From assembly GCF_014196305.1 (NCBI RefSeq), contig NZ_JACIDJ010000008.1:1-64000 (forward strand): a stretch of 64,000 nucleotides of DNA. The letters run 5' to 3'. The notes below the pieces were generated by a model that saw nothing but the letters and a program-made list of their open reading frames with translations, was not told where the DNA came from and searched no databases. Made by a program: the position numbers and the translations under genes. Shown one piece after another: positions 44,069-59,231 of this stretch. Positions within the stretch are counted from its first letter, which is position 1. Every line of letters starts with the position of its first letter. The stretch is from Roseococcus suduntuyensis (lineage in GTDB: Bacteria > Pseudomonadota > Alphaproteobacteria > Acetobacterales > Acetobacteraceae).

Positions 44069-44082
44069 AGGGCGGGCGGGGA

Positions 44083-44134
44083 TGGTGCCGACGGCGAGAA
44101 TCGAACTCGCGACCTACCGATTACGAATCGGTTG
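44083..44134. repeat. left attachment repeat (tRNA-Thr 3' fragment)
   Basis: Identical to 59157-59208. It covers the CCA end, T-arm and anticodon arm of tRNA-Thr (on the minus strand) but lacks the D-arm and the 5' acceptor strand, so it is not a functional tRNA. It marks the left junction of the element. Confidence 0.95.
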
Positions 44135-44150
44135 AAAGCCCCTTTCCGCA

Positions 44151-44269
44151 TGGACCCCCGCTAGGCGATATCAGGCAGATTCCCTTGCAAAACCGTGTCA
44201 GACCGTCCTACATCGTCTCACGCGATTTCATGCGAGCGCGGGCGATTTGGACCCCCGGTGGACCCCCGG
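44151..44269 (+). promoter_or_regulatory. integrase arm-type sites, left
   Basis: Three direct copies of TGGACCCCCG at 44151, 44248 and 44259; the last two are tandem at 11-base spacing. Two more tandem copies with the same orientation and spacing lie near the right end (59124, 59135). Position inside both ends and next to the integrase gene suggests arm-type binding sites for the recombinase. Confidence 0.6.
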
Positions 44270-44318
44270 CGGACTAACCGAATAGCCCCCCGCTGCTGGA
44301 TTGAGGGGATTCTGCGCG

Positions 44319-45557
44319 GTGAAACGGGAACTGAACGACGCCTTCCTGAACGGCTTGGAGCCCCCGGCATCGGGCCGGCTGGAAGTGTGGGACACGAAGG
44401 AGCCGGGCCTAGTCTGGCGCATGACGGCGAGCGGCGCGGCATCCTGGGGGGTGAGGGCGCGGACGAAGGACGGGAAACGGACCCGCCCCACCCTCGGCAC
44501 CTGGCCCGCCATGTCCATCAAGGTGGCCCGCCAGCGCGCAAAGGCCGCCATCGTCGCCATTGCCGGCGGTGCAGACCCCGCCGCCGAGAAGAAGCAGGCG
44601 CGGGCCGCGCGGGCCGCTGAAGCGGCCGAGGCGACCGTAGCGGCCCGCTGGGACGAATGGCGCGAGGCGCGCGCGGCAGACTGGTCGGACAGCTATCAGC
44701 GCGAGGTTGCCCGCATCGGCACGCGCGACCTGCTGCCCAAGTTGGGCAAGCGCCCCCTTCGCACGACGAAGCGCGAGGACTGGACGGGCATCATCGCCGC
44801 AAAGAAGAAATCCGCCCCGGTGCAGGCGAGCATCTTCTACCGCGTCGTGTCGTCCTTCCTGAACCACGCTGAGGCCGAGGGCTGGATTCCCCTCCCTCTG
44901 CTGCCCCGGAAAGGCTTGATCCGTTCCGCCCCGCCGCCCAAGGCGCGCGACCGCGCCCTGACGGATGCGGAACTGGTTGCCCTGTGGACTGCGACCGCCG
45001 CCGAGCCGGTGAAGCTGCGCGCCTTCGTGCGGCTGCTGATCCTGACGGGCGCGCGGCTGAACGAGGTGGCCGGGATCGCCACGGGGGAGATTGATCGCGC
45101 CGCCGGCCTGTGGCGCCTGCCTGCCGCCCGCGCGAAGAACAACATGCCCCACACCATGCCCCTGTGCGGGCTGGCGCTGGCCGAGATCGCCGCCGCGTGG
45201 CCCGAACATGGTGATGAGGCAGGGGCGGATTGGCGCCTGCTGGGGAAGGGGGGCAATGCCTTCTCGGGCTTCTCGAAACTCAAGGCGCGGCTGGACAAGG
45301 CGACCGGCCTTGCGCCCTGGCGCTTCCACGACCTTCGCCGCACGGCCCGCACGGGCATGGCGCGGCTGGGGGTGGACCGGCTGCACGCGGAGCGGGCCAT
45401 CGCGCATATCAGCGGGCAGTCGAAGCTTGAGCGGACCTACAACCTGCACGACTTCCAACCCGAGACGCTGGCGGCCCTGGGGCGCTGGCAGGCGCATGTC
45501 GCGGGGTTGATTGATCCGAAGCCCGCTGCGGAGATTGTGCCGCTGAGGCGCGCGTAA
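44319..45557 (+). CDS. int: tyrosine-type site-specific integrase
   Basis: A 412-aa recombinase with an N-terminal arm-binding DUF4102-like domain (LEVWDTKEPGLVWRM and GTWPAMSIKVARQRA), a core-binding domain, and the catalytic domain with R246 (TGARLNEV), H337-x-x-R340 (HDLRR), H363 and nucleophile Y374 (RTYNL). It should excise and insert the element at tRNA-Thr(CGT). GTG at 44319 is chosen with GAGGGGA about 9 bases upstream; a TTG at 44301 adds six residues. Last codon overlaps the next ATG. Confidence 0.93.
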   Translation: MKRELNDAFLNGLEPPASGRLEVWDTKEPGLVWRMTASGAASWGVRARTKDGKRTRPTLGTWPAMSIKVARQRAKAAIVAIAGGADPAAEKKQARAARAAEAAEATVAARWDEWREARAADWSDSYQREVARIGTRDLLPKLGKRPLRTTKREDWTGIIAAKKKSAPVQASIFYRVVSSFLNHAEAEGWIPLPLLPRKGLIRSAPPPKARDRALTDAELVALWTATAAEPVKLRAFVRLLILTGARLNEVAGIATGEIDRAAGLWRLPAARAKNNMPHTMPLCGLALAEIAAAWPEHGDEAGADWRLLGKGGNAFSGFSKLKARLDKATGLAPWRFHDLRRTARTGMARLGVDRLHAERAIAHISGQSKLERTYNLHDFQPETLAALGRWQAHVAGLIDPKPAAEIVPLRRA

Positions 45558-46207: not shown

Positions 46208-46230
46208 GGCACCACACAACATGAGGTGCC
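46208..46230 (+). promoter_or_regulatory. GGCACC/GGTGCC inverted repeat before the AlpA-like gene
   Basis: Arms GGCACC (46208-46213) and GGTGCC (46225-46230) enclose 11 bases that include part of the likely ribosome site of the next gene. It could be an operator or a hairpin that limits translation. Confidence 0.35.
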
Positions 46231-46235
46231 GCTCA

Positions 46236-46487
46236 GTGAGTAACCACGAAACGCCGCTTCCGCCCCGAGCCGCCGCAAGTGAGGTGGTGGGCGTGAGTCC
46301 TGCGACCTTCTGGCGCATGGTGGCCGCTGGCCGCCTGCCGGCCCCGTTCTATCCCAGCCCCCGCGCGCCGCGCTGGCTCGCCTCGGAACTGCGCGCCGCG
46401 ATGGAGGCGACCCGCGCCAAGCCCCGTGAGGCAATGGCCGAGCGCCGCGCCGCGAAGCTAGCGGACATGCAGGGGAGGGCCGCGTGA
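46236..46487 (+). CDS. AlpA-like helix-turn-helix regulator
   Basis: An 83-aa protein of the AlpA/excisionase type: a winged helix-turn-helix around VGVSPATFWRMVAAGRLPAPFY in part, with PRWLASELRAAME after it. In P4-like elements AlpA turns on integrase for excision. GTG at 46236 follows GAGGTG; an ATG at 46221 would add five residues. One base of its stop is shared with the next start. Confidence 0.8.
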   Translation: MSNHETPLPPRAAASEVVGVSPATFWRMVAAGRLPAPFYPSPRAPRWLASELRAAMEATRAKPREAMAERRAAKLADMQGRAA

Positions 46488-46801
46488 TGGCCGCCCTCAC
46501 GCCCCGAGACTCCGCCGATCCGCGCCACCTGGAAGCCGTCATCAACGACCTGGCCGGCGCCGCGAGCGTCGCCGCTGCGATCCTTGACCACATCCGCAGC
46601 GACCCCAACGCAGCCGAGGCGCAGTCGCTTGAAGAAGGCCTCGGCTGGCTCGCCCTGAGGCTCAACACCGCGGCCGAAAATGCGCTGGCCGTCCAGCGCC
46701 GCCACGCCCCGCGCTGGCGGACGTTGATGGAAGCGGAGGATATCGCCGCGGCGGTGGGAGCGGCCATCGCGGCGGCCAATGCGCGGGAGGCCGGGGAATG
46801 A
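46487..46801 (+). CDS. small hypothetical protein
   Basis: A 104-aa helical protein, no recognised domain (VINDLAGAASVAAAILDHI; EDIAAAVGAAIAAANARE). It overlaps the AlpA-like gene at its start and the next gene by 4 bases at its end, inside a coupled run of small genes that leads to the replication protein. ATG at 46487 (GTG at 46484 possible). Confidence 0.65.
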   Translation: MAALTPRDSADPRHLEAVINDLAGAASVAAAILDHIRSDPNAAEAQSLEEGLGWLALRLNTAAENALAVQRRHAPRWRTLMEAEDIAAAVGAAIAAANAREAGE

Positions 46802-47088
46802 GCAAGCCCTCCACCTCCACGCCGCCCGCCCTGCTGGCCGCCGCTGACGACGCGCTGAGCATCCTGAACGCCGCCGATGATCGCCACCTTGGCGACCTTG
46901 AAAGTTTTGCGGAACTGCTGGCGCACTTGGTCGAGAAGCCGGACGACACGCTGACAACCTCGGCGCTGGCGGCTACGGCCATGAGCATTCATCGCCATGC
47001 CGATGGCGTGGCCGAGGCGCTTCGTTCTGCGGTGGACCTGCTGAGGGAGGCGGTGATGCAGGCCCGCACCGCGAACCACCCGAAATAG
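46798..47088 (+). CDS. small hypothetical protein
   Basis: A 96-aa acidic helical protein (ALSILNAADDRHLGDLESF; AEALRSAVDLLREAVMQA) without a family I recognise. Its ATG overlaps the previous stop by 4 bases. A GC-rich hairpin follows the gene at 47092-47119. Confidence 0.65.
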   Translation: MSKPSTSTPPALLAAADDALSILNAADDRHLGDLESFAELLAHLVEKPDDTLTTSALAATAMSIHRHADGVAEALRSAVDLLREAVMQARTANHPK

Positions 47089-47727: not shown

Positions 47728-47888
47728 CACCCACCACCCGCACCCTGCGCGACATTCTGGAAGCCGCAGCTTCGGCCCGGCGGGAAGGCGATGCCGCCGC
47801 CGCCGACTGGCACGAAGCCGACGCGGCCCGCCTTCTGCGGCGCCTGGTGGCCGCGCCCGTGCCAGAGCAGCCGGAGGGCCGCCATTGA
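47724..47888 (+). CDS. 54-aa hypothetical protein
   Basis: A short helical protein, MTPTTRTLRDILEAAASA at its start, rich in alanine, arginine and glutamate. It overlaps the preceding gene by 4 bases (ATGA) and the following TTG start by 4 bases, so it is embedded in the coupled run. GGAGGG near its end serves as the ribosome site for the replication protein. It may exist partly to couple translation. Confidence 0.6.
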   Translation: MTPTTRTLRDILEAAASARREGDAAAADWHEADAARLLRRLVAAPVPEQPEGRH

Positions 47889-50494
47889 ATGCGCCCCCGC
47901 CTTTCGCGCCCGACAGGCGCGCCATCGGGCAATTCGTGGATGCGATGTTTCGCTACGCCGAGCCCGACACCTTCGTCTCGCTGCGAGCCTTCCGCGACGA
48001 TGCGAACGAGGTGTTCGCCAAAAAAGCGCACCGCATCGGCGAGAGCCTGGACACCCTTACAGACGAAGCGGAGCAAGGCGCACTCAAGGCCGCGAACGCG
48101 CCCTTCCCCGTGGTGTTCGCGCCGCCGGTCGCGACCTTCACCAACCCCGACAAGGCAGACGAGGCCAGCCTCGCGAATGGCCTGGCGCTGAGTGTGGAAT
48201 GCGACGCCACGCCCACCGCCGCGAGGCACCGCCTCGAAAGCCTGCTAGGCCCCGCAACGGTGGTGGTGGCCAGCGGGGGCGAATGGCCCGAGCCCGGGAC
48301 AGGGGTGCTGCAACCGAAGCTCCACCTGCATTGGCGCCTGACAGAGCCGACGCGCGAGGCCGAGGATCACGCCCGGCTGAAGCTGGCTCGCACGCTGGCC
48401 CAGCGCCTGGTAGGGGCCGACGCCTCGAATACGCCGATGGTCCACCCGATCCGTTGGCCTGGCAGTTGGCACCGCAAGCGGACGCCGCGCCTCGCGCGCA
48501 TCGTCGTCCTGCATGACGCCCGCGAGATTGACCTTCAGGACGCGCTGGAACGCCTCCAGGACGCCGCCAAGGCGGCCGGGCTACACGAACCCAAAGGCGC
48601 CGAAGGGGCCTCCACGGGCACGGGAGAGGCACGGGAGACGGCGGAGCTAGTCCGGGCGGTGCTGGCGGCGGAGGACTACCACGCGCCGCTGGCCGCCCTC
48701 GCAATGCGGTTGCTCAAGTCAGGCACTCAGGATGGGCAAGCGGTGGTTCTGCTGCGCGGGATCATGCTGGCGGTTCCCATCGCACAACGCGACCTGAAGG
48801 ACGGCACGCCCGAGCCGGGCCGCTGGCAGTCGCGCTATGACGACATCCCCCGCGCCGTGGCGACGGCCCGCGCCAAGCTGGGGGAGAGGCCCGCCGAGGC
48901 CGCCGCACCTGGCGGCGAGTGGCCCGATCCGGTGGACTTCCTCGGCGACACGGAATTGACCGGCGCCCCCGTGCTGCGGCCCGATCATCTGCCCGACGCC
49001 CTCGCGCCCTTCGTCTTCGACACGGCGGCGCGCATGGGCGTTGACCCGGCGGCGGTGGCCCTCTGCGCGGTGGTGGCCGCCGCCAGCGTCATCCCGGACG
49101 AGTGGCGCATACAGCCTCGCGTGCATGACGACACCTGGACGGAAAGCCCCCGGCTTTGGGGCGCGGTGGTGGGTGATCCGTCCATCATGAAAACGCCCGT
49201 CCTAAAGGCCGCGACGGCCCCGATTGATCGCCTGGACGCCGAGGCGCGGGATCGGCACGCCGAGGCCATGCGGAAGTGGCGGGAGGAAATGGCCGCCCTC
49301 AAGGCGGACAAGGCGCCCCCAGGCATTGGGCCGCAGCAACCGAAGCTGGATCGGCACCTGATCGAGGGCACGACCGTTGAAGCCCTGACCGAAGTCCTGC
49401 GGCGCGACGATGAGGCAAAACAGCGCGCGCCGTCGGGCAAGGTGCTGTGCCGCCAAGACGAGATGAGCGGCTGGCTGGCCTCCATGGATCAATACAAGTC
49501 CGGCGGCAAAGGCGGCGCGGATCGGGCGCATTACCTGACGCTGTTCAACGGTGGCCGGTATGTCGTGGACCGAATTGGGCGCGGCACCTTCGCCATTCCG
49601 AATTGGTCCGCCTGCGTGCTCGGCGGCATCCAGCCCGAGCCCATCCAGCGCGTCGCCAAAGAGGCGGCAGACGATGGCCTGCTGCAACGCTTCCTCTACT
49701 GCCTGCCGAGCGGGCAGGGCGATGGGGAGGACCGGCGCCCCGACGCGGCAGCCCTCGCGCGCTACGCCGCCCTCTTCCCTGCCCTGGCCGTGCTGCGCCC
49801 CAAGACGGGCTTTGCCGAACTGGCCCCCGAAGTCAGGCACAAGCCGGTGGTCTTCCACTCGGACGCGCATCGGCACCGCGAGGGCATCAACGCCCTGGTG
49901 AAAGCCCATGGCGCCCTTCCCGACGCGTCGCCCCGGCTGAAGGCCGCCCTCGCCAAATGGCCTGGCACCTTCGCCCGGCTGGCGTTGACCTTCCACCTTA
50001 TCGCCATCGGGGACGCCCATGCGCGCGGAGAACGGCCGCCCGTCGCCACGGTGCTGACGGAGGACACGGCCCGCCGCGCCGCCGCCTACATGCGGGAGGT
50101 GCTGCTTCCGCACCTGCTGCGCGCCGATGCCCTACTGTTCCTGACGCGCCAGACAGGCCACGCGCGATGGATCGCGGGGCACATCCTGGCGAGCGATGAC
50201 GCGCGGGAGACGGGGCGCGTCACGCTGCGGGACATTACACGGGCCTACGGTGCCCTCCGCGCTCCGGAACATCGGCGCGAACTGCTTGAGGTGCTGGATA
50301 CGCTGGCCGTCATGGGCTGGGTCAGCCCTGAGCCGGTGGAGAACGCGGCGAGGCACCCGACCGGATGGCAGGTTAACCCGAAGCTGCACGCGGTCTTTGC
50401 CGTCGCGGCGGCTGCCGAGAAGGCCCGGCGCCAACGGGCAGCCGAAGAAATGCGGGAAGCCATCCGCCGCTACCGAGCGGAGCAACCCCGATGA
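47885..50494 (+). CDS. RepB-like primase / DUF3987 helicase-type replication protein
   Basis: An 869-aa protein. The N-terminal third is a RepB-type archaeo-eukaryotic primase domain (KLHLHWRLTEPTRE, HPIRWPGSWHRK). The rest is DUF3987, a helicase-like domain with a P-loop GDPSIMKT (430-437) and a DE Walker B (D525, E526 in RQDEMSGW). Such fusions are the replication or primase proteins of genomic islands and satellites. TTG at 47885 has GGAGGG about 6 bases upstream. A candidate origin lies just downstream at 50505-50619. It makes autonomous replication of the element after excision plausible. Confidence 0.85.
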   Translation: MNAPPPFAPDRRAIGQFVDAMFRYAEPDTFVSLRAFRDDANEVFAKKAHRIGESLDTLTDEAEQGALKAANAPFPVVFAPPVATFTNPDKADEASLANGLALSVECDATPTAARHRLESLLGPATVVVASGGEWPEPGTGVLQPKLHLHWRLTEPTREAEDHARLKLARTLAQRLVGADASNTPMVHPIRWPGSWHRKRTPRLARIVVLHDAREIDLQDALERLQDAAKAAGLHEPKGAEGASTGTGEARETAELVRAVLAAEDYHAPLAALAMRLLKSGTQDGQAVVLLRGIMLAVPIAQRDLKDGTPEPGRWQSRYDDIPRAVATARAKLGERPAEAAAPGGEWPDPVDFLGDTELTGAPVLRPDHLPDALAPFVFDTAARMGVDPAAVALCAVVAAASVIPDEWRIQPRVHDDTWTESPRLWGAVVGDPSIMKTPVLKAATAPIDRLDAEARDRHAEAMRKWREEMAALKADKAPPGIGPQQPKLDRHLIEGTTVEALTEVLRRDDEAKQRAPSGKVLCRQDEMSGWLASMDQYKSGGKGGADRAHYLTLFNGGRYVVDRIGRGTFAIPNWSACVLGGIQPEPIQRVAKEAADDGLLQRFLYCLPSGQGDGEDRRPDAAALARYAALFPALAVLRPKTGFAELAPEVRHKPVVFHSDAHRHREGINALVKAHGALPDASPRLKAALAKWPGTFARLALTFHLIAIGDAHARGERPPVATVLTEDTARRAAAYMREVLLPHLLRADALLFLTRQTGHARWIAGHILASDDARETGRVTLRDITRAYGALRAPEHRRELLEVLDTLAVMGWVSPEPVENAARHPTGWQVNPKLHAVFAVAAAAEKARRQRAAEEMREAIRRYRAEQPR

Positions 50495-50952
50495 CGGCGG
50501 CGCCCATGTCGCAAATGTCGCTACACGCGCGCGCGCGCGAGGCTGGCTTTTCCAAGATATATGAAAAAGTGGGTCAAATCACTTCGGCGTCTCACGCGCG
50601 CGTAGCGACATTTGCGACATGCCGCCCCGGCGGCTGCCGCCTTCCAACCCTTTCCGCCCCGGAGACGCTGGCCGCACGGCCGGGCGCGGCAACCCCTGCG
50701 GCCGAGGTTCACGCAATGCTCTACGCCCTGAAAGCGGGCTTGTCCGGCGCACCCCTCGCACTGGCGCCCTCGCTGCCCCGCGCTCTCTGGTCGCGGCTGC
50801 CGGCGCACATGCAAGCCCTCTATGAGGCGACGCCCGTTCCGCCGCCCCCGCCCCCGTCGCCCGACGCGCGCGCACACGTTGCCATGCGCCAGGCCGGTGC
50901 TGCCGTGACGGCTACGCTGCGCGCCGGCCGCACCCTTCCCACCATTCGCTGA
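50491..50952 (+). CDS. hypothetical protein overlapping the candidate origin
   Basis: A 153-aa frame starting in a 4-base overlap with the replication gene. Its first 45 codons are the inverted-repeat region itself and read as low-information sequence. The later part (EVHAMLYALKAGLSGAPLAL; SRLPAHMQALYEATPVPPPPP in part) looks like protein. Either it is a real small gene or only its downstream half is coding. Confidence 0.5.
   Translation: MTAAPMSQMSLHARAREAGFSKIYEKVGQITSASHARVATFATCRPGGCRLPTLSAPETLAARPGAATPAAEVHAMLYALKAGLSGAPLALAPSLPRALWSRLPAHMQALYEATPVPPPPPPSPDARAHVAMRQAGAAVTATLRAGRTLPTIR
50505..50619. other. candidate replication origin: inverted repeats, iteron-like heptamers, AT-rich centre
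   Basis: Perfect 20-bp inverted arms 50505-50524 and 50600-50619; each contains two ATGTCGC heptamers (four in all, two per orientation). Inside each arm lies an alternating CG tract (50527-50536 and 50593-50600), then an AT-rich core with AAGATATATGAAAAAG. The site follows the replication protein gene directly. This is the layout expected of an iteron origin, but no activity is shown. Confidence 0.5.
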
Positions 50953-50965
50953 AAGGATGTCCATC

Positions 50966-51685
50966 ATGCAGCTGTTCAAGAAGCAGCCGACCGCCGCGCC
51001 GGCCCCCGCCATCAACGACGCGCCTGCCGCGCCCCATGCCGCCCCCAGCACAGCGGCAAAGCTCGCCGAGGCCCGTGAAGCCGCCGCCGAAGCAGAGGCG
51101 GCCCGTGCGGCTGCCGAGGATGCGCTACAGGCCGATATCCTGGACCTCGAACCCCAGTCGTTCGCCGAACGCCGCGCCGAGGTGGTGAGGCTGCGGCAGG
51201 CGGCAGAAGACACGGCGGCCCGCGTGGCGATCCTGGAGAAGGCCAAGGCCGAGGGCGACAAGCAGGAGCGCGTGGACCGCGTGCGCGCCTATGCTGCCGA
51301 ACTGGAGGCAATGACCGCCGAGGGTGTGGCGGCTGAGGCCGCCTACCTCATGGCAGCGCGGGACGCCTGGCAGGCCGCGCAGACCTTGCGACGTGTGCAG
51401 AAGCGGGCGTGGCAGATTGGCAGTGACCTACACGACCTGTGGGACAACGAAATGGCCGCCACTATCGGCCAATACCCCCGCCTCGGCGCGGAGCTTGCGG
51501 AGGTGACCTTGCTCCGCCTGCCTGCTGCCGGACCCCAAGGGGTGATGTTGGCGGATGCTGACGGCGCTGAGGACGACGCCGGCTTTATAAACCGCCACGT
51601 CGCGGCTACCGGCCGGCGCGCCCTGCATGACGGCATCAATGCGGGCATGGACATTGCCCGCCGGGTGGATCGGTGGCGCCGCTGA
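50966..51685 (+). CDS. coiled-coil hypothetical protein
   Basis: A 239-aa protein: an alanine- and proline-rich N-tail, a long coiled coil (about 35-130; EAREAAAEAEAARAAAED, RVAILEKAKAEGDKQE), and a more globular end that contains YPRLGAELAEVTLLRLP. No membrane segment. ATG at 50966 is preferred over 50957 because AAAGGA lies 8 bases upstream. Function unknown; position after the origin suggests a scaffold or DNA-handling role, which is a guess. Confidence 0.65.
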   Translation: MQLFKKQPTAAPAPAINDAPAAPHAAPSTAAKLAEAREAAAEAEAARAAAEDALQADILDLEPQSFAERRAEVVRLRQAAEDTAARVAILEKAKAEGDKQERVDRVRAYAAELEAMTAEGVAAEAAYLMAARDAWQAAQTLRRVQKRAWQIGSDLHDLWDNEMAATIGQYPRLGAELAEVTLLRLPAAGPQGVMLADADGAEDDAGFINRHVAATGRRALHDGINAGMDIARRVDRWRR

Positions 51686-51755: not shown

Positions 51756-51838
51756 GCTAACACAGGAAATCCTCGCGCGCGCGCGCGCAAAGACTGGCTT
51801 TTCGCCGGAATTTTAAGTATAATTCCGAAAATTAGCCC
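51756..51838. other. second CG-tract / CTGGCTTTTC motif with AT-rich inverted repeat
   Basis: An alternating CG tract (about 51774-51788) is followed by CTGGCTTTTC (51794-51803) and the inverted repeat CGGAATT/AATTCCG (51806-51828) around TTAAGTAT. The same CG tract plus CTGGCTTTTC occurs in the candidate origin at 50527-50550. It ends 50 bases before the tape-measure gene and may hold that gene's promoter or a second replication site. Confidence 0.5.
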
Positions 51839-51885
51839 CATTCCGGAAGACGAGCCGGGGCGGCACTCAGGAAAGGACAGTCGGC

Positions 51886-53841
51886 ATGTCTGACACAGTA
51901 GGCCGCCTCACAGTCGTCATTGACGCGAAGGTGGCGCAGTTTGAGCAACGGGTAGCCCGCGCCGAGCAACGGCTTCAGGGCTTTTCTCGCAAGGGCGCGC
52001 AGGACGTGCGGAAGGTGGACGAGAGCTTCTTGCAACTCACGAACCGCACCCTTGCCCTGGCACGGGCGATGCCCCTTCTCGGGACGGCAATCGCGGGCGC
52101 CTCTGCCGGCGGGATGCTGGCGATGGTGCAGCGCTCAGTGGAGGCGACCGCGCAGCTTGAAATCCTCGCCACCCGGGCCGGTGTCAGTACGGATGCCTTG
52201 CAGGCGCTGGGCTACGCGGCGGGGCAAGTTGGCTTGCGGCAGGACGACATGCAGGACGGCTTGCAAGAGCTGACCTTGAAGCTTGGCGAAGCCGCGCGGG
52301 GGGAGACGGAGGCCACAGAGGCTTTCACGGCCCTCGGCGTGGCGGTGACAGACACGCAGGGGCGCATCCGCCCGACGGCGGCAGTGCTCACTGATCTTGT
52401 CGCCAAGTTTTCCGAAATGCAGAACCCGGCCGAGCGAGCAGCGGCGGCGGCGCGCATCTTCGGTGATGACCTGGCGGCCCGCATGGTGCCCTTCCTCACG
52501 CAAGGTTCGGCGGCGCTGCGAACCATGGTCGAACGGGCCATCGAATTTGGGAACGTCGCGGACGCGGAGTTGATCGCCAAGGCGCGCGAGGCTTCGACGC
52601 GTATCACGGCGTTGCAGACTTCGTTTTCCGCGCTGGCTCGCAACATGCTGGCCGAGGTGGCGCCTGCTCTCACGACTGTGGCGAACCTGCTGAACAGCAT
52701 CATTGAAGGCGGACGCGGCGCGCCCCGGCTGGCGACGATCCAGGCTCAGGCGGGCCAGCTTGCGGAGACCATCCAGAACCTTGAGGGGCGCCTCGGCGGC
52801 GGCGCCTTGCCGGGCGGGATGCGGAACGTCCTGACGGGGCAGCTTGCGCGGGCACGCGCGGACTTGGAGGCGCTGAACGTTGAAGCGGAGGCGATCAATC
52901 GACGGATCGCGAACGCCCCGGCGCGGGCGGCAGAGGTGTTGAACCCAACAGGGGGCGCCCGGCCCGTCATGCCCGCTGAGGCTGCCTCCGGTGGCCGTGG
53001 GGGCGCCTCTGCCCGCGCGGACGATGCAACTACCCGACGGACGAATGCAGTCATCCAGGCTCAGGAAAACCAACTGCTGTCCGACCGCACGCGCATCCTT
53101 GAGCAGAACCGCACGCCCGAGGAAACCTACATCGCGCGCCTCGAAAGGCTCGGCGAGGTGGTGGCGCGGTTCGAGGGCACGGGCGACGAATTACCGTTGC
53201 CCATGATCCAGGCCGAGGCAATTGACGCTCTGAACGACTACGAGGACGCCATCCGCAGGGCCGGCGGCGCGGCGACTGAAGCGCAACAGGCGCTTCGCAA
53301 GCTGGGCGAGCAGACGGTGATGAACTTCGCCGAGGCCATCGCCGAAGGGCGCAGCCTCCGGGAGGTGGCGCAAGGGCTGCTGAAGGACTTGGGCCGGCTG
53401 TTCCTGCAACAAGCGGTGCAGGGTTCGGGCGTGGGGAAAATCTTCAGCAGCTTCTTTGGCAGTCTGTTCGGTGGAGGTGGCGGCGGTGGTGCCGGCAAAG
53501 TCCCATCCGCCAACGGCAACGTATTCAGCGGCGGGCGCGTGGTGCCCTTCGCCACGGGCGGCGTGGTCAGTGGCGCGATCGCCTTCCCAATGGCCGATGG
53601 CCGCACCGGCTTGATGGGGGAGGCTGGCCCCGAGGCCATCATGCCGCTGACGCGCGGCCCTGGCGGCAAGCTGGGCGTGAAGGCGCAAGGTGGTGGTGCG
53701 CCGGTCGTGATCCACCAGCACATGACCTTCGGCAGCGACGTGAACCGAGCGACGCTGGCGCAGTGGGGCGCAGAGGTGAAGCGTCAGACACTGGCGGCGG
53801 CGCAGGAGACGCGGCGGGAAAGCCGGAGCTTCCTGGCCTAG
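51886..53841 (+). CDS. phage tail tape-measure protein (lambda-type C-terminus)
   Basis: A 651-aa protein. N-terminal helices (AKVAQFEQRVARAEQRLQ), a hydrophobic AMPLLGTAIAGASAGGML stretch near 60, a tape-measure core (STDALQALGYAAGQVG), coiled coil, a glycine hinge (SLFGGGGGGGAG) and the tape-measure C-tail PFATGGVVSG / GLMGEAGPEAIMPLTRG. Such proteins set tail length and help DNA ejection. No other tail, head or packaging gene is in the element, which is unusual. Strong GAAAGGA site precedes the ATG at 51886. It is intact, so it is probably used. Confidence 0.85.
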   Translation: MSDTVGRLTVVIDAKVAQFEQRVARAEQRLQGFSRKGAQDVRKVDESFLQLTNRTLALARAMPLLGTAIAGASAGGMLAMVQRSVEATAQLEILATRAGVSTDALQALGYAAGQVGLRQDDMQDGLQELTLKLGEAARGETEATEAFTALGVAVTDTQGRIRPTAAVLTDLVAKFSEMQNPAERAAAAARIFGDDLAARMVPFLTQGSAALRTMVERAIEFGNVADAELIAKAREASTRITALQTSFSALARNMLAEVAPALTTVANLLNSIIEGGRGAPRLATIQAQAGQLAETIQNLEGRLGGGALPGGMRNVLTGQLARARADLEALNVEAEAINRRIANAPARAAEVLNPTGGARPVMPAEAASGGRGGASARADDATTRRTNAVIQAQENQLLSDRTRILEQNRTPEETYIARLERLGEVVARFEGTGDELPLPMIQAEAIDALNDYEDAIRRAGGAATEAQQALRKLGEQTVMNFAEAIAEGRSLREVAQGLLKDLGRLFLQQAVQGSGVGKIFSSFFGSLFGGGGGGGAGKVPSANGNVFSGGRVVPFATGGVVSGAIAFPMADGRTGLMGEAGPEAIMPLTRGPGGKLGVKAQGGGAPVVIHQHMTFGSDVNRATLAQWGAEVKRQTLAAAQETRRESRSFLA

Positions 53842-54563
53842 ACTTGTGGCACGAAGCTGACGCCATCTGAGCGGGCGCTGTTCACGCGGCGCCGCAAGGA
53901 GATTTACGAGGCGTTGCACCCGGAGACGCGCAACGGCGCAAACCAGCACACGAGGGTCGGCCAAATTGGCCAAGCCTTTGCAGACGACACCGCAGAGAAG
54001 ACCGGCGTCGCAGCCCGCACCATTCGCCGCGACGCCACGCGCGGCGAGCGGCTTGTTGAAGAGAAGGTGGCCCACGGTGGGCCACCTTTGCCGGGGGGCC
54101 ACATTGATGAGTGGCGGCGGCTGACCGTGGAGAAGGTGGGTGCAGCTTGCACCCACCTTGGGGGGGTTCAGCCAGCAGAGCGCGGCATCAAGAAGACAGC
54201 CGATGCGTTGGGGGTTTCGGAGGACACGGTGAAGCGCGCCACGCGCATCGCCGCCCTTCCCCAGGACGTGCGCGACACCGCGCGAGCAGAGGACTGGTCG
54301 CAGTCACGGCTGTTGCAGGCTGCGCGGCCCACGCCCAAGGCGCCGCCAATCGCACCCGATCCGCTGGAAGAAGAGCAGGCCATTGAGGCTCAGGTGAAGC
54401 GCCTCATGGCCGCCTGGAACGCTGCCGGACCTGATGCACGCGCGGCGAACGGCTTGGCGAGGATGTTCTCCAGCAGGTGCGCGGGACCGAGTTGGACAAT
54501 GGCGTGGTGCTGGATTGGTTGGCGCAGGCGGAAGCGCTTCCTAACCCAGTTGATCTTAACTGA
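53842..54563 (+). pseudogene. ParB-like protein remnant, 5'-truncated and frameshifted
   Basis: Directly after the TAG of the tape-measure gene and in the same frame, codons read LTPSERALFTRRRKEIYEAL, the middle of ParB-like proteins, then HTH-type TGVAARTIRRDATRGE and GVSEDTVKRATRIAALP. The ParB nuclease-like N-domain is missing and no start codon fits. Near 54440 the reading frame slips: the following frame continues as LGEDVLQQVRG and DNGVVLDWLAQAEALPNP, ending at TGA 54561-54563. A TTG-started frame (53914-54672) exists but its last 70 residues are shadow. Deletion joined two modules here. Confidence 0.7.
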
Positions 54564-54804
54564 GCTTGGCTGGGCTCCCGGCGACCATCGCCAGCTTCTG
54601 CGCCGCGAGCTTCAACAGCTCAGCGCAGAGCGGAAGACCGCCCTGTTCGGCATGCCGTGCCGAAGCCAATAGGCTGTCCACCAGGGCTTGCTTTTCCGCG
54701 CCCTTCCGGTCATCGCCCCGCGCGGACCTGGAAGACTCCAAGCCGCCCGCATGAACCATTAGAGTGGGAGGGCTGTGCGGGTCGCTGGCTCGGTATGCGG
54801 GCAT
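54556..54804 (-). CDS. small hypothetical protein
   Basis: An 82-aa protein with a helical, amphipathic C-half (ALVDSLLASARHAEQGG, LCAELLKLAAQKLAMVAG). The ATG at 54804 has GGAGAC four bases upstream. It runs opposite to the neighbouring remnant and overlaps its last bases. No family recognised. Confidence 0.45.
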   Translation of the reverse strand: MPAYRASDPHSPPTLMVHAGGLESSRSARGDDRKGAEKQALVDSLLASARHAEQGGLPLCAELLKLAAQKLAMVAGSPAKLS

Positions 54805-55050
54805 GGTGTCTCCGGCAAGGTTTGCATCTAAGTCAATTTTTCATCTTCACGCTGTTTGGAATACAACCGGGAATTTGTCACTCTCCCCCTATGCGAGTAA
54901 CGCCGATTTAATTAGCTGTCCGGATCCGAAATGGCCCTTATGGTCCCCAGAATCGACGCGCCGAGGCATTCTACGGTTGAGTGCTTTCGTAAGACTTCTC
55001 CGATAGCCTACTAAAGGCGCGGGATTCTTTTTTTGAGGGAGCAAGGGGTT

Positions 55051-55260
55051 GTGGATGCGCAAGAATATATACGCGGGATCCTTCGGGCCGCCCTTCATGA
55101 ATCTTTGGCAAAGTCGTCCAATAGCGAGGATGCATTTGCAAGACTTGAACGGGAACTCTCTGAATGGGCAGCTCAAAATACTGGAGTGCCCCAGGATACC
55201 ATATTAGCAATGTTGAGGCAGATCATAGAAGAAGAGCGCGCGAAGCGCGGTGATCGCTGA
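55051..55260 (+). CDS. small helical protein in an AT-rich patch
   Basis: A 69-aa helical protein (EYIRGILRAALHESLAKSS; LSEWAAQNTGVPQDTILAML). Base composition is clearly more AT-rich than nearly all other genes in the window, as is the 54830-55030 stretch before it, which suggests a separate, recent origin. GTG at 55051 follows GAGGGAG with 8-9 base spacing; a TTG at 55033 is possible. Function unknown. Confidence 0.55.
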   Translation: MDAQEYIRGILRAALHESLAKSSNSEDAFARLERELSEWAAQNTGVPQDTILAMLRQIIEEERAKRGDR

Positions 55261-55301
55261 AAATTGGGCAAAATCAAGCAGAGCCTATTAACGGGACCGC
55301 T

Positions 55302-55658
55302 TCAACCCGCCTGCCAGGGCCGTTCTATGCATTCGCGCCAGCCCGTTGCTCCGTAAGGCAGTCCCTGGGCATGGCATAAGGCAAGCCGCAGGCTCGCAGC
55401 ATCCATGAACCGGGAGAGATGCAGCAAAAGGCGGTGAAGCTCCGCATCGGACAACCGTCGCCCGGGAAGCCCGTCAGCATCTACCGGAATAGGCTGCCCA
55501 TCGTCACCGAGAACCCCATACAACAGGCCCAGCGGCACTGAAGTCGTCAGGGCGGCCGACCCACCGCTCATGGAAATTGCTGCAACGAGCATCACGCAAC
55601 GCAGCGCCCGGGCCACGCAAAGCGCCCCGCTGCCAATCACGAGGCGAGGGGTTCCCAT
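55302..55658 (-). CDS. hypothetical protein
   Basis: A 118-aa protein with a hydrophobic N-terminal part (ALRCVMLVAAISMSGGSAAL) that might be a signal or membrane anchor, and a C-half reading LSDAELHRLLLHLSRFMDAA in part. No family recognised. It overlaps the previous leftward gene by 22 bases, so the two probably share a transcript. ATG at 55658 has no clear ribosome site. Confidence 0.5.
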   Translation of the reverse strand: MGTPRLVIGSGALCVARALRCVMLVAAISMSGGSAALTTSVPLGLLYGVLGDDGQPIPVDADGLPGRRLSDAELHRLLLHLSRFMDAASLRLALCHAQGLPYGATGWRECIERPWQAG

Positions 55659-55885
55659 CCGGGCAGGATTTCTGGGCGCTGGAAAGGGGCCAGCAGCACG
55701 GCCCTTTCGACCCGTATCTCACTTCTGCCCGGCCCTGTGACGCTCACGGTGCCGATTGTAAACTGGTCGGTGATGGTTGAGGCGGCTCCGAACAGGTGAA
55801 CCTCAAAGACTGGCCGACCATCATCAGGTATCTCAGCACGGCCGAGCAGGCGGTTTTCGCCGTTTTCGCTGCGGTAAACTTTCAT
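55637..55885 (-). CDS. small hypothetical protein
   Basis: An 82-aa beta-rich protein (MKVYRSENGENRLLGRAEI; STITDQFTIGTVSVTGPG) of unknown function. The ATG at 55885 gives a compact domain; an ATG at 55984 would add 33 residues. It lies on the minus strand and is coupled with the 118-aa gene downstream. Confidence 0.5.
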   Translation of the reverse strand: MKVYRSENGENRLLGRAEIPDDGRPVFEVHLFGAASTITDQFTIGTVSVTGPGRSEIRVERAVLLAPFQRPEILPGWEPLAS

Positions 55886-56088
55886 CTCTGACCCAGGGGT
55901 TGTCCCAGGCGAGGTTAGTCCAACTCCCCACCCATGGCGCAAGCCTTCGACGGAGACGCCGCAAAACCTGTCAGATACGGACATGCCGGGCTTACTTCAT
56001 GTGATCGCTGCGAGCGATGACCGCTTGCTACCCATGAAGCGGCTCGCCACCCTCCCGACCTCATGCAAAGGGGGAGCGGGATAGCGCG

Positions 56089-56514
56089 ATGAGCACGCAT
56101 GGCGGCATGCCGTCGCCCCCTCCGTTGGCGGGCATTCAGCAGAACCAAATCCGCGCCGCCGCGCGGGCCTACCGCGCCGCGATGACGGAAGGCGACTCTG
56201 ACGGCCCCGCGAGGCGCCGGGCAATCACCGCCTATATTGCCGCCGGAGGTAACACCGAAACAGCCTTCACGGACGTAGCCCGAATCATCGCCCGCGTGGC
56301 GAGCGACCATGGCGAATGGTTCTGGCGACCCGTCATGGAGCGGTTGGAACGTGAGGAATACGCCATGCGGAAGCTGGGATGGTGGCCTGGCCCTCGCGCC
56401 TGGGACGAGCGGCGGCGCGTCGCGGAAGCGGCGGTGGCGCGGGTGTTCGGGAATAAGGCCGCCTGCGGCCCTGACATGGCCGGGCAGCCCGGCTCGCCCC
56501 CTCAGCCCGAGTGA
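56089..56514 (+). CDS. hypothetical cargo protein (intact paralog)
   Basis: A 141-aa protein of unknown function with a conserved core DHGEWFWRPVMERLEREEYA, then AMRKLGWWPGPRAWDERRR and EAAVARVF. A decayed paralog with the same core lies at 58719-59087 on the other strand, so the family is typical of this element and was duplicated. ATG at 56089 follows a GGGGGAG-rich leader. No catalytic pattern is evident. Confidence 0.7.
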   Translation: MSTHGGMPSPPPLAGIQQNQIRAAARAYRAAMTEGDSDGPARRRAITAYIAAGGNTETAFTDVARIIARVASDHGEWFWRPVMERLEREEYAMRKLGWWPGPRAWDERRRVAEAAVARVFGNKAACGPDMAGQPGSPPQPE

Positions 56515-56568: not shown

Positions 56569-57225
56569 ATGTGCAACGCCTACTCCATGACGAAGAGCCA
56601 GCAGGCCATCCGCGACATTGCGCGCGTGATGCGCGACGGGTTGGGCAATCTGCCGCCTATGCCTGGCATCTACCCTGACTATGCCGCGCCCATCGTCCGG
56701 AACGGCGTGGACGGGCGGGAGCTGGTCTATGCGCGCTGGGGTATGCCCTCGCCGGCCTTTGCCCTGAAGGGCCGCAAGACGGACCCGGGCGTGACCAACA
56801 TCCGCAACACGAAGTCGCCCCACTGGCGCCGCTGGCTCGGCGTGGAAAGTCGGTGCGTGGTGCCGTTCACCAGCTTCGCCGAGAACGAGGTGTTGCCGGA
56901 TGGATCGCGGCCCCCCGTCTGGTTTGCGCTGGCGGAGGGCCGCCCTCTGGCCTTCTTCGCGGGCGTGTGGACGCGCTGGACCTCTGTCCGGAAGTTGAAG
57001 GAAGGCGAGACGACGAACGACCTGTTCGCCTTCCTGACGACCGAGCCGAACGCCGAAGTTGGCGCCGTCCACCCGAAGGCCATGCCGGTGATCCTGACGA
57101 CGCCGGAGGAGGTGGACCTCTGGCTTACAGCCCCGACCGCCGAGGCCATGGCCCTTCAGCGGCCCTTGCCGGATGGCGCACTGAAGGTGGTGGCGCGGGG
57201 CGGGAAGCAGGATGGGGAACCGTAG
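56569..57225 (+). CDS. SRAP / YedK-like SOS-associated protein
   Basis: A 218-aa SRAP protein. After removal of Met1 the catalytic Cys2 (MCNAYS) would bond covalently to abasic sites in single-stranded DNA and protect forks. Other family positions are seen: TNIRNT, the glutamate in SFAENE (where many have a GFYEW-type sequence) and HPKAMPVIL with the conserved histidine. Mobile elements often carry SRAP genes. It may protect replicating element DNA; that is inference. Short 55-base gap after the previous gene. Confidence 0.9.
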   Translation: MCNAYSMTKSQQAIRDIARVMRDGLGNLPPMPGIYPDYAAPIVRNGVDGRELVYARWGMPSPAFALKGRKTDPGVTNIRNTKSPHWRRWLGVESRCVVPFTSFAENEVLPDGSRPPVWFALAEGRPLAFFAGVWTRWTSVRKLKEGETTNDLFAFLTTEPNAEVGAVHPKAMPVILTTPEEVDLWLTAPTAEAMALQRPLPDGALKVVARGGKQDGEP

Positions 57226-57322: not shown

Positions 57323-57682
57323 ATGCACACAGTCTGCGAACTCTTCTCCTTCCGGCGCGCCGCCAAGGATGCGGGAATGGACGCAGATGAGGTAGAGCGG
57401 CTGGTTACGTATCTAGCAGGCAACCCTCAAGCTGGCGACGTGATCGAAGGAACTGGAGGCTGTCGGAAGGTTCGGTTTGCTAGACCCGGAAAAGGGAAAA
57501 GCGGCGGATATCGGACAGTCACCTTTTACACAGGCCCAAATATTCCGGTCTTCTTACTCACCGTTTTTGCAAAGGGGGAGAAGGTTAATCTCTCCAAGGC
57601 TGAGCGAAACGATCTCGCCGCCATGACGGGGGAGTTAGTGGAGGAGTACCGCAACCGCGTAAGGAAAGTGAACACAAGATGA
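57323..57682 (+). CDS. RelE/HigB-type toxin
   Basis: A 119-aa toxin of the RelE/ParE superfamily. Conserved: GDVIEGTGGCRKVRFARPGKG in part, GGYRTVTFYTG, and VFLLTVFAKGEKVNLSKAER in part. Members usually cut mRNA at the ribosome and stop growth. There is no ribosome site and the ATG lies about 6 bases after the -10 box, so the message may be leaderless. Its stop overlaps the antitoxin start by 4 bases. It is more AT-rich than the core genes. Confidence 0.88.
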   Translation: MHTVCELFSFRRAAKDAGMDADEVERLVTYLAGNPQAGDVIEGTGGCRKVRFARPGKGKSGGYRTVTFYTGPNIPVFLLTVFAKGEKVNLSKAERNDLAAMTGELVEEYRNRVRKVNTR

Positions 57683-57975
57683 GCAAGAAGGCTTTCGGCA
57701 AGATCGCGGAGGGGCTCCGCGAGGCCCTGGCGGTCGCCCGGCACGAAACCAGCCCTGCACGTCTGCATGTTCCGCCCGAGATGGACGTGCGCGCCATTCG
57801 TTCGAAGACCGGGCTATCCCAGGAGGGCTTTGCCCAATCCTTTGGTTTCACCGTTCATCAGGTGCGCCAATGGGAGCAGGGGCGAAACCGCCCCACCGGG
57901 GCCATGCGAGCTTATCTTATGGCGATTGAGCGCAACCCGGCGACCATACTTGATCTGCTGCGGGAAGCGGCATGA
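57679..57975 (+). CDS. XRE-family antitoxin
   Basis: A 98-aa DNA-binding antitoxin. The N-half (MSKKAFGKIAEGLREALAVA) likely covers the toxin; the C-half is an XRE helix-turn-helix (IRSKTGLSQEGFAQSFGFTVHQVRQWEQGRNRP in part). It would bind the palindrome upstream of the toxin. Toxin-first order resembles higBA. Overlaps the toxin stop by 4 bases. Confidence 0.9.
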   Translation: MSKKAFGKIAEGLREALAVARHETSPARLHVPPEMDVRAIRSKTGLSQEGFAQSFGFTVHQVRQWEQGRNRPTGAMRAYLMAIERNPATILDLLREAA

Positions 57976-58718: not shown

Positions 58719-59087
58719 TCACTCCGGCCTGTCGCCAAACACGCGCGCCACGGCTTCCTCCGCCATGCGGCGCCGTTCATCCCAAGCAAGCGCGCCGGGC
58801 CTCCATCCAAGCTTCCGCATGGCCGCATCCTCCCGGTCCTACCGTTCCCGGACTGGCCGCCAGAACCATTCGCCATGGTCTGCGGCCACGCCGGCAATGA
58901 TGCGGGTAACATCCTTCTACGCTGCATTAGGATTGCCGCCAGCCTCGATGTCGGCCGCGACTGCACGGGCGCTGGCCTCGCGGGCCTGGCACCCCTCTAC
59001 CATTGTGGCGCGGTAGGCGAGGGCAACGGCGCGGATGCGTTCGCACTGGTAATGGCGGAGCGCGGTGGGGCTTGGCATTCCACCCAC
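58719..59087 (-). pseudogene. decayed paralog of the 56089-56514 gene (two amber stops)
   Basis: Reading the minus strand from GTG 59087 to TGA 58719-58721 in one frame gives GGMPSPTALRHYQ, AGVAADHGEWFWRPVRER, AMRKLGWRPGALAWDERRR and EEAVARVFGDRPE, matching the intact protein along its length. Two TAG codons interrupt it (complement of 58917-58919 and 58839-58841), at the places of Phe and Leu codons in the intact copy. There is no frameshift. Confidence 0.8.
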
Positions 59088-59144: not shown

Positions 59145-59156
59145 AGTTGGGAAGGG

Positions 59157-59208
59157 TGGTGCCGACGGCGAGAATCGAACTCGCGACCTACCGATTACGA
59201 ATCGGTTG
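59157..59208. repeat. right attachment repeat
   Basis: 52 bases identical to 44083-44134. It forms the 3' part of the complete tRNA-Thr gene, including CCA, T-arm, variable region and anticodon arm, so integration leaves the tRNA intact. Confidence 0.95.
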
Positions 59209-59231
59209 CACTACCGCTGTGCTACGTCGGC
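59157..59231 (-). tRNA. tRNA-Thr(CGT)
   Basis: Read on the minus strand from 59231: acceptor GCCGACG pairs with CGTCGGC, D-arm GCAC/GTGC, anticodon stem ACCGA/TCGGT with loop TTCGTAA (anticodon CGT), T-arm GCGAG/CTCGC, discriminator A and encoded CCA (complement of 59157-59159). It is the integration target of the element. Confidence 0.97.

Follow-up and report, generated by a model that had tools for sequence, protein, structure and literature searches.

A lone tape measure gene in a satellite-like element of Roseococcus suduntuyensis, and similar elements in related bacteria, suggest satellites that build their own ruler into the tails of other phages

A 15-kb element of Roseococcus suduntuyensis carries a gene for a tape measure protein (TMP) as the only virion gene recognised in it. 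This lone TMP, together with similar elements in related bacteria, suggests that satellites build their own ruler into the tails of other phages. For the element described here, the best explanation, to which we give somewhat better than even chances, is that the satellite replaces the ruler of helper tails with its own TMP, all other tail parts coming from the helper. As far as is known, satellite control of helper tails was demonstrated in 2026 and for a single family, the PLE (PMC12987554). If TMP proves to be a common satellite gene in another bacterial class, with an origin in multiple phages and sometimes as the sole virion gene, tail manipulation would rank with capsid resizing as a general strategy of satellites. 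Such elements would then serve as minimal systems for the effect of TMP alone on tail length, on DNA entry and on the escape from TMP-targeting defences.

The window, that is, the whole stretch of 64,000 nucleotides that was analysed, is located on contig C8 of the 4.14-Mb genome (G000). The element measures 15,074 bp, taken as the spacing from repeat start to repeat start, and it is inserted in a tRNA-Thr(CGT) gene with a 55-bp att repeat. The right copy of the repeat (59154-59208) lies inside the intact tRNA-Thr(CGT) gene at 59157-59231 on the minus strand, and the left copy (44080-44134), identical to the right one at 54 of 55 positions, is the displaced 3' part of tRNA-Thr, where ARAGORN called a tRNA-Thr at 44083-44155. 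The two closest genomes, G175 and G044, lack the element, and in both of them the flanks (left 96% and right 97% in G175, left 77% and right 93% in G044) join on one repeat copy. These empty sites indicate that the element is a recent insertion in this strain.

All the genes of the element described here are on the plus strand. The order begins with a tyrosine integrase (44301-45557, with a possible start at 44319; Pfam Arm-DNA-bind_3 3e-14 and Phage_integrase 1.2e-13, phrog_1 2.4e-41), an unknown protein of 197 aa, an AlpA/excisionase-like helix-turn-helix protein (46221-46487; a modest phrog_66 match of 1e-7, with HTH_17 below the cut-off) and three small ORFs. It continues with a DUF3987 helicase/primase (47885-50494; Pfam DUF3987 1e-50), a 27-nt inverted repeat (50505-50531 and 50595-50621, 96% complementary, with an A+T-rich middle), a helical protein of 242 aa without a family assignment, immediately 5' of TMP (50957-51685), TMP itself (51886-53841), a start-less open frame (53842-54672) and an accessory stretch. 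The latter comprises a SOS-response-associated peptidase (SRAP, 56569-57225; Pfam 4.7e-23) and, at 57323-57975, a RelE-type toxin (57323-57682; RelE 8.3e-10) with an HTH antitoxin (57679-57975; HTH_31 7.2e-6, just below the cut-off). A 96-aa protein encoded at 46798-47088 is 38% identical over 77 aa to L043:9320-9550 (tblastn 3.7e-7), part of a second TMP element that this genome carries. The 242-aa protein gave no match in Pfam, PHROG or PADLOC, and AF2 run without an alignment predicted helices only, with a mean pLDDT of 62. One arm of the inverted repeat is conserved at 83-97% identity no more than 2 kb away from the primase of six relatives (L046, L047, L050, L052, L062 and L064), and this repeat is probably the replication origin of the satellite family. 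The accessory region also holds a 302-nt inverted duplication (56149-56450 and 58735-59036, 71% complementary), in which a 141-aa ORF is paired with what seems to be its decayed copy, close to the att site.

This arrangement of integrase, AlpA/Xis-like protein, DUF3987 primase and conserved inverted repeat is that of a phage satellite. The length falls between 10 and 20 kb, the integrase is accompanied by att repeats at a tRNA and by an empty site in relatives, the element has its own replication gene (DUF3987) and an AlpA-like regulator, and instead of a full virion gene set TMP alone was found. Pfam, PHROGs and the tail models recognised in the element no capsid, portal or terminase, which a cf-PICI has of its own, and no tail tube, chaperone or hub; in the whole window, neither TAC nor a baseplate hub was recognised by Pfam, PHROGs or the TAC/hub models. 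The original prediction that the element has no other tail genes agrees with these results, as the other ORFs of the element that were scanned singly gave no tail match in Pfam and PHROGs (for those starting at 56.5 kb or beyond, the scan used Pfam alone). The ORF at 46484-46801 matched a virion-protein PHROG family with an E of 0.04, which was taken as a chance match and discarded as a virion gene. The protease label found 5.5 kb downstream corresponds to a host gene beyond the att site.

Regarding the TMP gene (ATG at 51886, stop at 53839-53841), its product of 651 aa matches PhageMin_Tail with an E of 4.8e-9 (36.8 bits against a Pfam cut-off of 33.2), and phrog_10574 spans its residues 1-646 (positions 4-636 of 640). 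Both the core and the length of a tape measure are therefore present, and the earlier description of a full-length gene with a tape-measure core holds. Thirty PHROG families match at E ≤0.1, and among the best 25 of them 18 are tape measure families and seven have unknown function. The TMP frame scored +0.21 per codon and the five other frames were all negative, according to a codon model whose training set was limited to 31 host genes, which makes it independent of the element genes; the gene caller had been seeded with element genes including TMP and later retrained per locus, so it is no independent test for this gene. The lambda-type C-tail that had also been claimed is less certain as worded, since Tape_meas_lam_C reached 15.7 bits against a Pfam cut-off of 23, yet phrog_1716 and phrog_339 align inside residues 442-634. 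The C-terminal stretch is closely alignable with the TMPs of L038 and L039, and its C-terminal motif resembles that of L038-L040. A plain hydropathy scan found no transmembrane stretch in the protein and PADLOC gave no defence-system match.

A ribosome binding site, AGGAAAGGA, is located at 51869-51877, 8 nt 5' of the ATG, as had been predicted. The upstream motif region proposed for the gene is real as far as its letters are concerned: a (CG)n tract with CTGGCTTTTC is found at 50543 and again 5' of TMP at 51794-51823 on the plus strand, with an AT-rich stretch next to it and TATAAT at 51818-51823. The promoter scan found 0 sites upstream of TMP, so transcription from this region is putative. 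The repeat itself is weak because CTGGCTTTTC has 6 matches at up to one mismatch and 9 of 100 shuffles reach that number. It was not seen at the equivalent place in the scanned primase relatives, and the 51794-51823 place also contains a single weak terminator-like stem.

The nearest relatives of this TMP belong to siphophages. It clusters with L035-L037 (SH-aLRT 97) and its core is 45-50% identical to the TMPs of these three loci (genomes G160 and G021). L035 and L037 belong to operons that comprise head as well as tail genes, and L036 lies with tail genes on a short contig; apart from this operon setting, the difference lies in the length, which is 695 aa in L035 and L036 and 695-732 aa in the related phages, against 651 aa here. 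The helical stretches found in L035 are missing from the TMP of the element, and its region of approximately 380-609 is 37-42% identical to L038-L040. Among the loci examined, no further satellite was found whose TMP is closely related to this one. A phage-record search with the TMP returned 23 records, all of them in pieces and none covering 80%, and a search of IMG/VR with the single TMP protein returned one weak locus. Among 80 TMP loci from IMG/VR, L173, L205, L210, L213, L224 and L241 have an integrase within 9 kb.

The census of related TMPs revealed that the isolated context is recurrent. A TMP core profile (A3) was applied to 397 genomes of the family at E ≤1e-25, scoring up to six candidates per genome, and it found at least 66 TMP places in at least 57 genomes, these counts being lower bounds on account of both settings. 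Their surroundings were taken as far as the contigs extend. At 47 of the 66 places, a tail tube, a sheath or several additional tail genes, either siphophage or Mu-like, lie within 9.5 kb. At the other 19 the models built for tube and sheath found neither nearby, although these models, derived from a single Mu-like locus (L042) and a single siphophage (L044), could overlook tubes of other types. Homologues are thus not always part of full tail operons, as they would have to be for the original prediction to be refuted, and the search for copies in the same isolated context, which had been proposed as a check, gave a positive answer.

The two groups differ clearly in their neighbours. With iterative models that started from two integrases and three primases, an integrase and/or a primase was found within 9.5 kb at 16 of the 19 tube-less places versus 0 of the 47 tail places (Fisher P 1e-12), and the proportions were 11/12 versus 0/32 where at least 7.5 kb of sequence was available on both sides. 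Neither label was found at L313, L337 and L343, and the contigs of L305 and L343 are shorter than 5 kb. No other tail label exists at ten of the tube-less places (the window, L043, L313, L316, L325, L341, L350, L353, L356 and L357); at the other nine, TMP is accompanied by a TAC, a hub or a minor-tail label and is near-lone, not lone. L331 and L358, both counted among the 66, have identical TMP cores, and L063 and L316 are one element from two collections, counted once. Tube-less TMPs also tend to be shorter, with a median stop-to-stop frame length of 627 (n=19) versus 698.5 in the tail group (n=42, after omission of 5 of the 47 rows that were cut or broken; P 0.02). Across the class, 24 of 385 genomes gave matches, at 27 places; among those outside the family, L261 and L268 were the two analysed closely.

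Att-like repeats delimit seven TMP elements with lengths of 10-18 kb. The one under study has a length of 15.07 kb and TMP alone, and one more is present in the same genome. This second element (L043:5317-15697, about 85.3-95.7 kb of contig C7) has a length of 10.36 kb, is inserted at tRNA-Ala with a 19-bp repeat and encodes a primase, a TMP gene overlapping a protease-capsid fusion gene and an integrase. It carries, then, two size-setting virion proteins, and neither a terminase nor a tail tube was recognised in it. L302 (14.63 kb, genome G325) encodes an integrase, a TAC (Phage_TAC_7), TMP, an S49 protease, a primase and DUF927, and L316 (17.81 kb) an integrase, a DUF3987 primase 57% identical to that of the window, a small-terminase-like gene and a TMP whose C-terminal part may be lysozyme-like. 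L261 (15.06 kb, at tRNA-Ser) has an integrase, an HNH gene and TMP, and L341 (12.47 kb, at tRNA-Ser, with a 19-bp repeat) an integrase, a capsid label and TMP. Finally, L268 (17.76 kb, at tRNA-Gly) contains terminase, portal, capsid, adaptor, TMP, minor tail protein and integrase; cf-PICIs encode capsid and packaging genes, and L268 is close to their plan. Among unbounded loci, Pfam located a hub gene of the Mu gp44/GpP type close to TMP in L310 and in L340, the latter in the genus of the window, and Phage_TAC_7 by TMP in L246, as in L302. The unlabelled ORFs of the six bounded elements outside the window were mostly pooled with ten ORFs of the window (82 proteins), and some were also scanned singly. 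Among the best 25 of the 51 PHROG families of this pooled scan, which are given by family and not by member, there was one tail family, phrog_1924, with two members.

The primase relatives showed that TMP is not a fixed component of these satellites. Of 200 genomes of the family, 12 hold relatives of the DUF3987 primase, the genome of the element included, and 77 loci were kept from GTDB genomes (the best 80 of 199 relatives). TMP was found with the A2/A3 models at 2 of the 94 DUF3987-primase loci outside the window (L063 and L074), many of these loci being distant primases or lying on short contigs. The primase most similar to that of the element is found in L045, from Roseococcus sp. SDR (81%); this locus likewise has an integrase upstream and different cargo behind the primase, where a defence set of PLD helicase and DUF1156 methyltransferase is located (L045:14092-19150). 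Both results indicate that TMP is cargo and not part of the core of the satellite family.

To place these TMPs in an evolutionary context, a quick tree of 80 cores was built, 58 of them labelled as tail-operon and 22 as tube-less; 12 extra tail rows come from outside the family census and their labels were partly checked, and the program flagged L264, L343, L340 and L338 as long branches. The tube-less label changes 15 times on this tree, at least five of the changes being forced by the starred branches. The scattering of tube-less TMPs among tail-operon TMPs points to repeated capture and to a polyphyletic origin of the satellite TMPs. In the tube-less clade formed by L341, L350 and L356 (SH-aLRT 100), dN/dS was 0.21 for L350-L356 and 0.18 for L350-L341, ratios that are rough because dS is above 1; a value of about 0.2 nevertheless argues against decay in this lineage.

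The genome G245 provides a pair of special interest, the TMP of the tube-less locus L353 (8653-10551) and that of the contractile prophage L349 (9506-11362), whose ends are alike and whose cores differ. Their identity is 90-96% in the first 250 alignment columns, 78-80% in the next 100, 25-46% in the following 250 and 70-83% at the end. Judging by this alignment, L353 and L349 are the obvious candidates for a satellite-helper pair. A wider proposal can be formulated on this basis, in which satellites of Acetobacteraceae and related Alphaproteobacteria would be a broad polyphyletic group of ruler pirates that repeatedly captured TMP, with or without a chaperone, a hub, a prohead protease or a capsid protein, all of them components that determine the dimensions of the virion, to re-size or re-gate helper tails, their TMP copying the ends of the helper TMP and changing the core as in L353 and L349. 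This proposal is tentative and we place it a little below even odds. Among the matches listed, the open-licence literature contained no report of TMP-bearing satellites of Alphaproteobacteria.

The closest tested precedent for a satellite that puts its own TMP into helper tails is the PLE of Vibrio cholerae. As described in the Nature 2026 report (PMC12987554), these satellites encode TMP and TAC, and PLE11 also BhuB; in PLE11 virions, the PLE TMP and BhuB replace the ICP1 versions; the tails bearing the PLE TMP, which differs in length from the helper TMP, are approximately 10 nm shorter; and deletion of tmp lowers transfer by 96% in PLE1, 99% in PLE4 and about 99.9% in PLE11. The legend of its Extended Data Fig. 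10 adds putative tmp genes in PLE-like elements and sampled cf-PICIs (PMC12987554). Such cf-PICIs share with the present element an integrase and a predicted TMP. There are also clear differences. TAC and BhuB were not recognised in the window element, its TMP is of siphophage type and that of PLE contractile, and the PLE TMP was found in virions that contain parts of the helper ICP1, whereas for this one both the place in virions and the helper are putative. The capsid and packaging genes of cf-PICIs were not recognised here either, L268 being the closer case. With PICI and P4-like satellites, the element shares the att site at a tRNA, the integrase, the AlpA-like gene, the primase and an accessory spot behind the primase.

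Under the favoured explanation, the satellite TMP would be produced during the growth of a siphophage helper in the same cell, and its ends would fit the helper tail parts, so that it could be built into a tail of helper tube, chaperone and tip. There it would set the tail length. TMP accounts for 0.15 nm of tail length per residue, and 651 aa versus 695-732 aa would thus give tails about 7-12 nm shorter than those of the related phages. The satellite TMP would also be the protein ejected with the DNA, and the benefit could be a better entry of satellite DNA or an escape from TMP-targeting defences. The original prediction had already proposed that the element supplies its own TMP to a helper tail; the PLE precedent (PMC12987554) and the recurrence in 19 of the 66 places make the idea more credible, and for this copy the role is a predicted one. 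Its full-length core, its host-like codon usage and the delimited element with empty sites speak for such a chimeric tail, as do the recurrence of the same plan, the presence of TAC or hub near TMP in some relatives and the TMP/TAC/BhuB set of PLE (PMC12987554). The sequence comparisons, namely the tube-less clade apparently under purifying selection, the probable repeated capture and the tendency of tube-less TMPs to be shorter, are consistent with it too.

Several features weigh against the chimeric tail, and some of them also count for a remnant or passenger, that is, a TMP acquired from a siphophage by illegitimate recombination, functionless and still open because the capture is recent. 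The nearest kin of this TMP are in siphophage operons and no close satellite homologue was found; no TAC or hub was recognised in the element, and the promoter scan was empty. The DNA 3' of TMP looks truncated: the start-less frame at 53842-54672 begins directly at the TMP stop codon, has a codon score below 0 and weak ParB-like PHROG matches (E 0.02), and could perhaps be a truncated partition or HTH-type gene and the whole a recombination scar, while 54673-56088 is noncoding in every frame by the open-frame and host-trained codon check. The element is missing from the two closest genomes and so recent in this strain that an open TMP frame alone says little; furthermore, TMP at 2 of 94 primase loci is not family core, and the purifying selection was seen in another TMP lineage with dS above 1. 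In the opposite direction, many other small elements have TMP as their sole tail gene, or nearly so, one tube-less lineage seems to be under purifying selection, and this copy has a ribosome binding site and 651 open codons with host-like usage. We consider a remnant unlikely overall, and it stays a serious reading for the window element.

Interference with other phages, which had also been put forward, appears more doubtful still. A TMP without tube and chaperone could act as a decoy that occupies the chaperone or the tail tip of phages entering the cell, in other words, as a defence at the accessory spot behind the primase. This spot holds the defence set in L045, and in PICIs the spot behind pri holds the Tai tail-assembly inhibitors (PMC11364771); tail assembly is a known target of defence, and Tab is described as recognising TMP (PMC10884400). 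In contrast, PADLOC found no match for this TMP, and among the relatives tested with Pfam two have a TAC and two a hub near TMP, an arrangement that fits assembly better than poisoning. To our knowledge, the known tail-assembly inhibitors are small proteins unlike TMPs. A decayed prophage reduced to a few genes, rather than a satellite, is very improbable: TMP is a prophage gene and the element does contain noncoding tracts, but the integrase, the AlpA-like gene and the primase are retained along with the conserved inverted repeat and the two att sites, L045 (81%) likewise combines an integrase upstream with other cargo behind the primase, and the resident siphoprophage with its head and tail operons looks quite unlike the element.

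This resident siphoprophage, C1, was identified by gene order and bears on the question of the helper. Its TMP differs from the satellite TMP in both the N-terminal part and the C-terminus, for which reason C1 is not named as the helper. As for a possible packaging site, no long DNA is common to the element and C1, the longest stretch being 17 bp against 19 in a control host segment; both results weigh against the chimeric-tail explanation. A search of this genome for a contractile sheath returned no match, a result that carries no weight by itself. A 26-bp match at 54100 to the element of contig C7 was discarded, as it extends to 69 bp at 78% only.

Two further observations concern the surroundings of these loci. 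A gene module of approximately 160, 450 and 130 aa is common to several primase islands and adjoins one prophage (L027:8757-10950, L029:14547-16776, L031:16277-17795, where the 130-aa gene was not seen, and L037:12938-15177). Moreover, a tRNA-Thr(CGT), the same tRNA used by the window element, is located near two other tube-less TMP loci, at L313:11156-11230 and L325:9134-9208.
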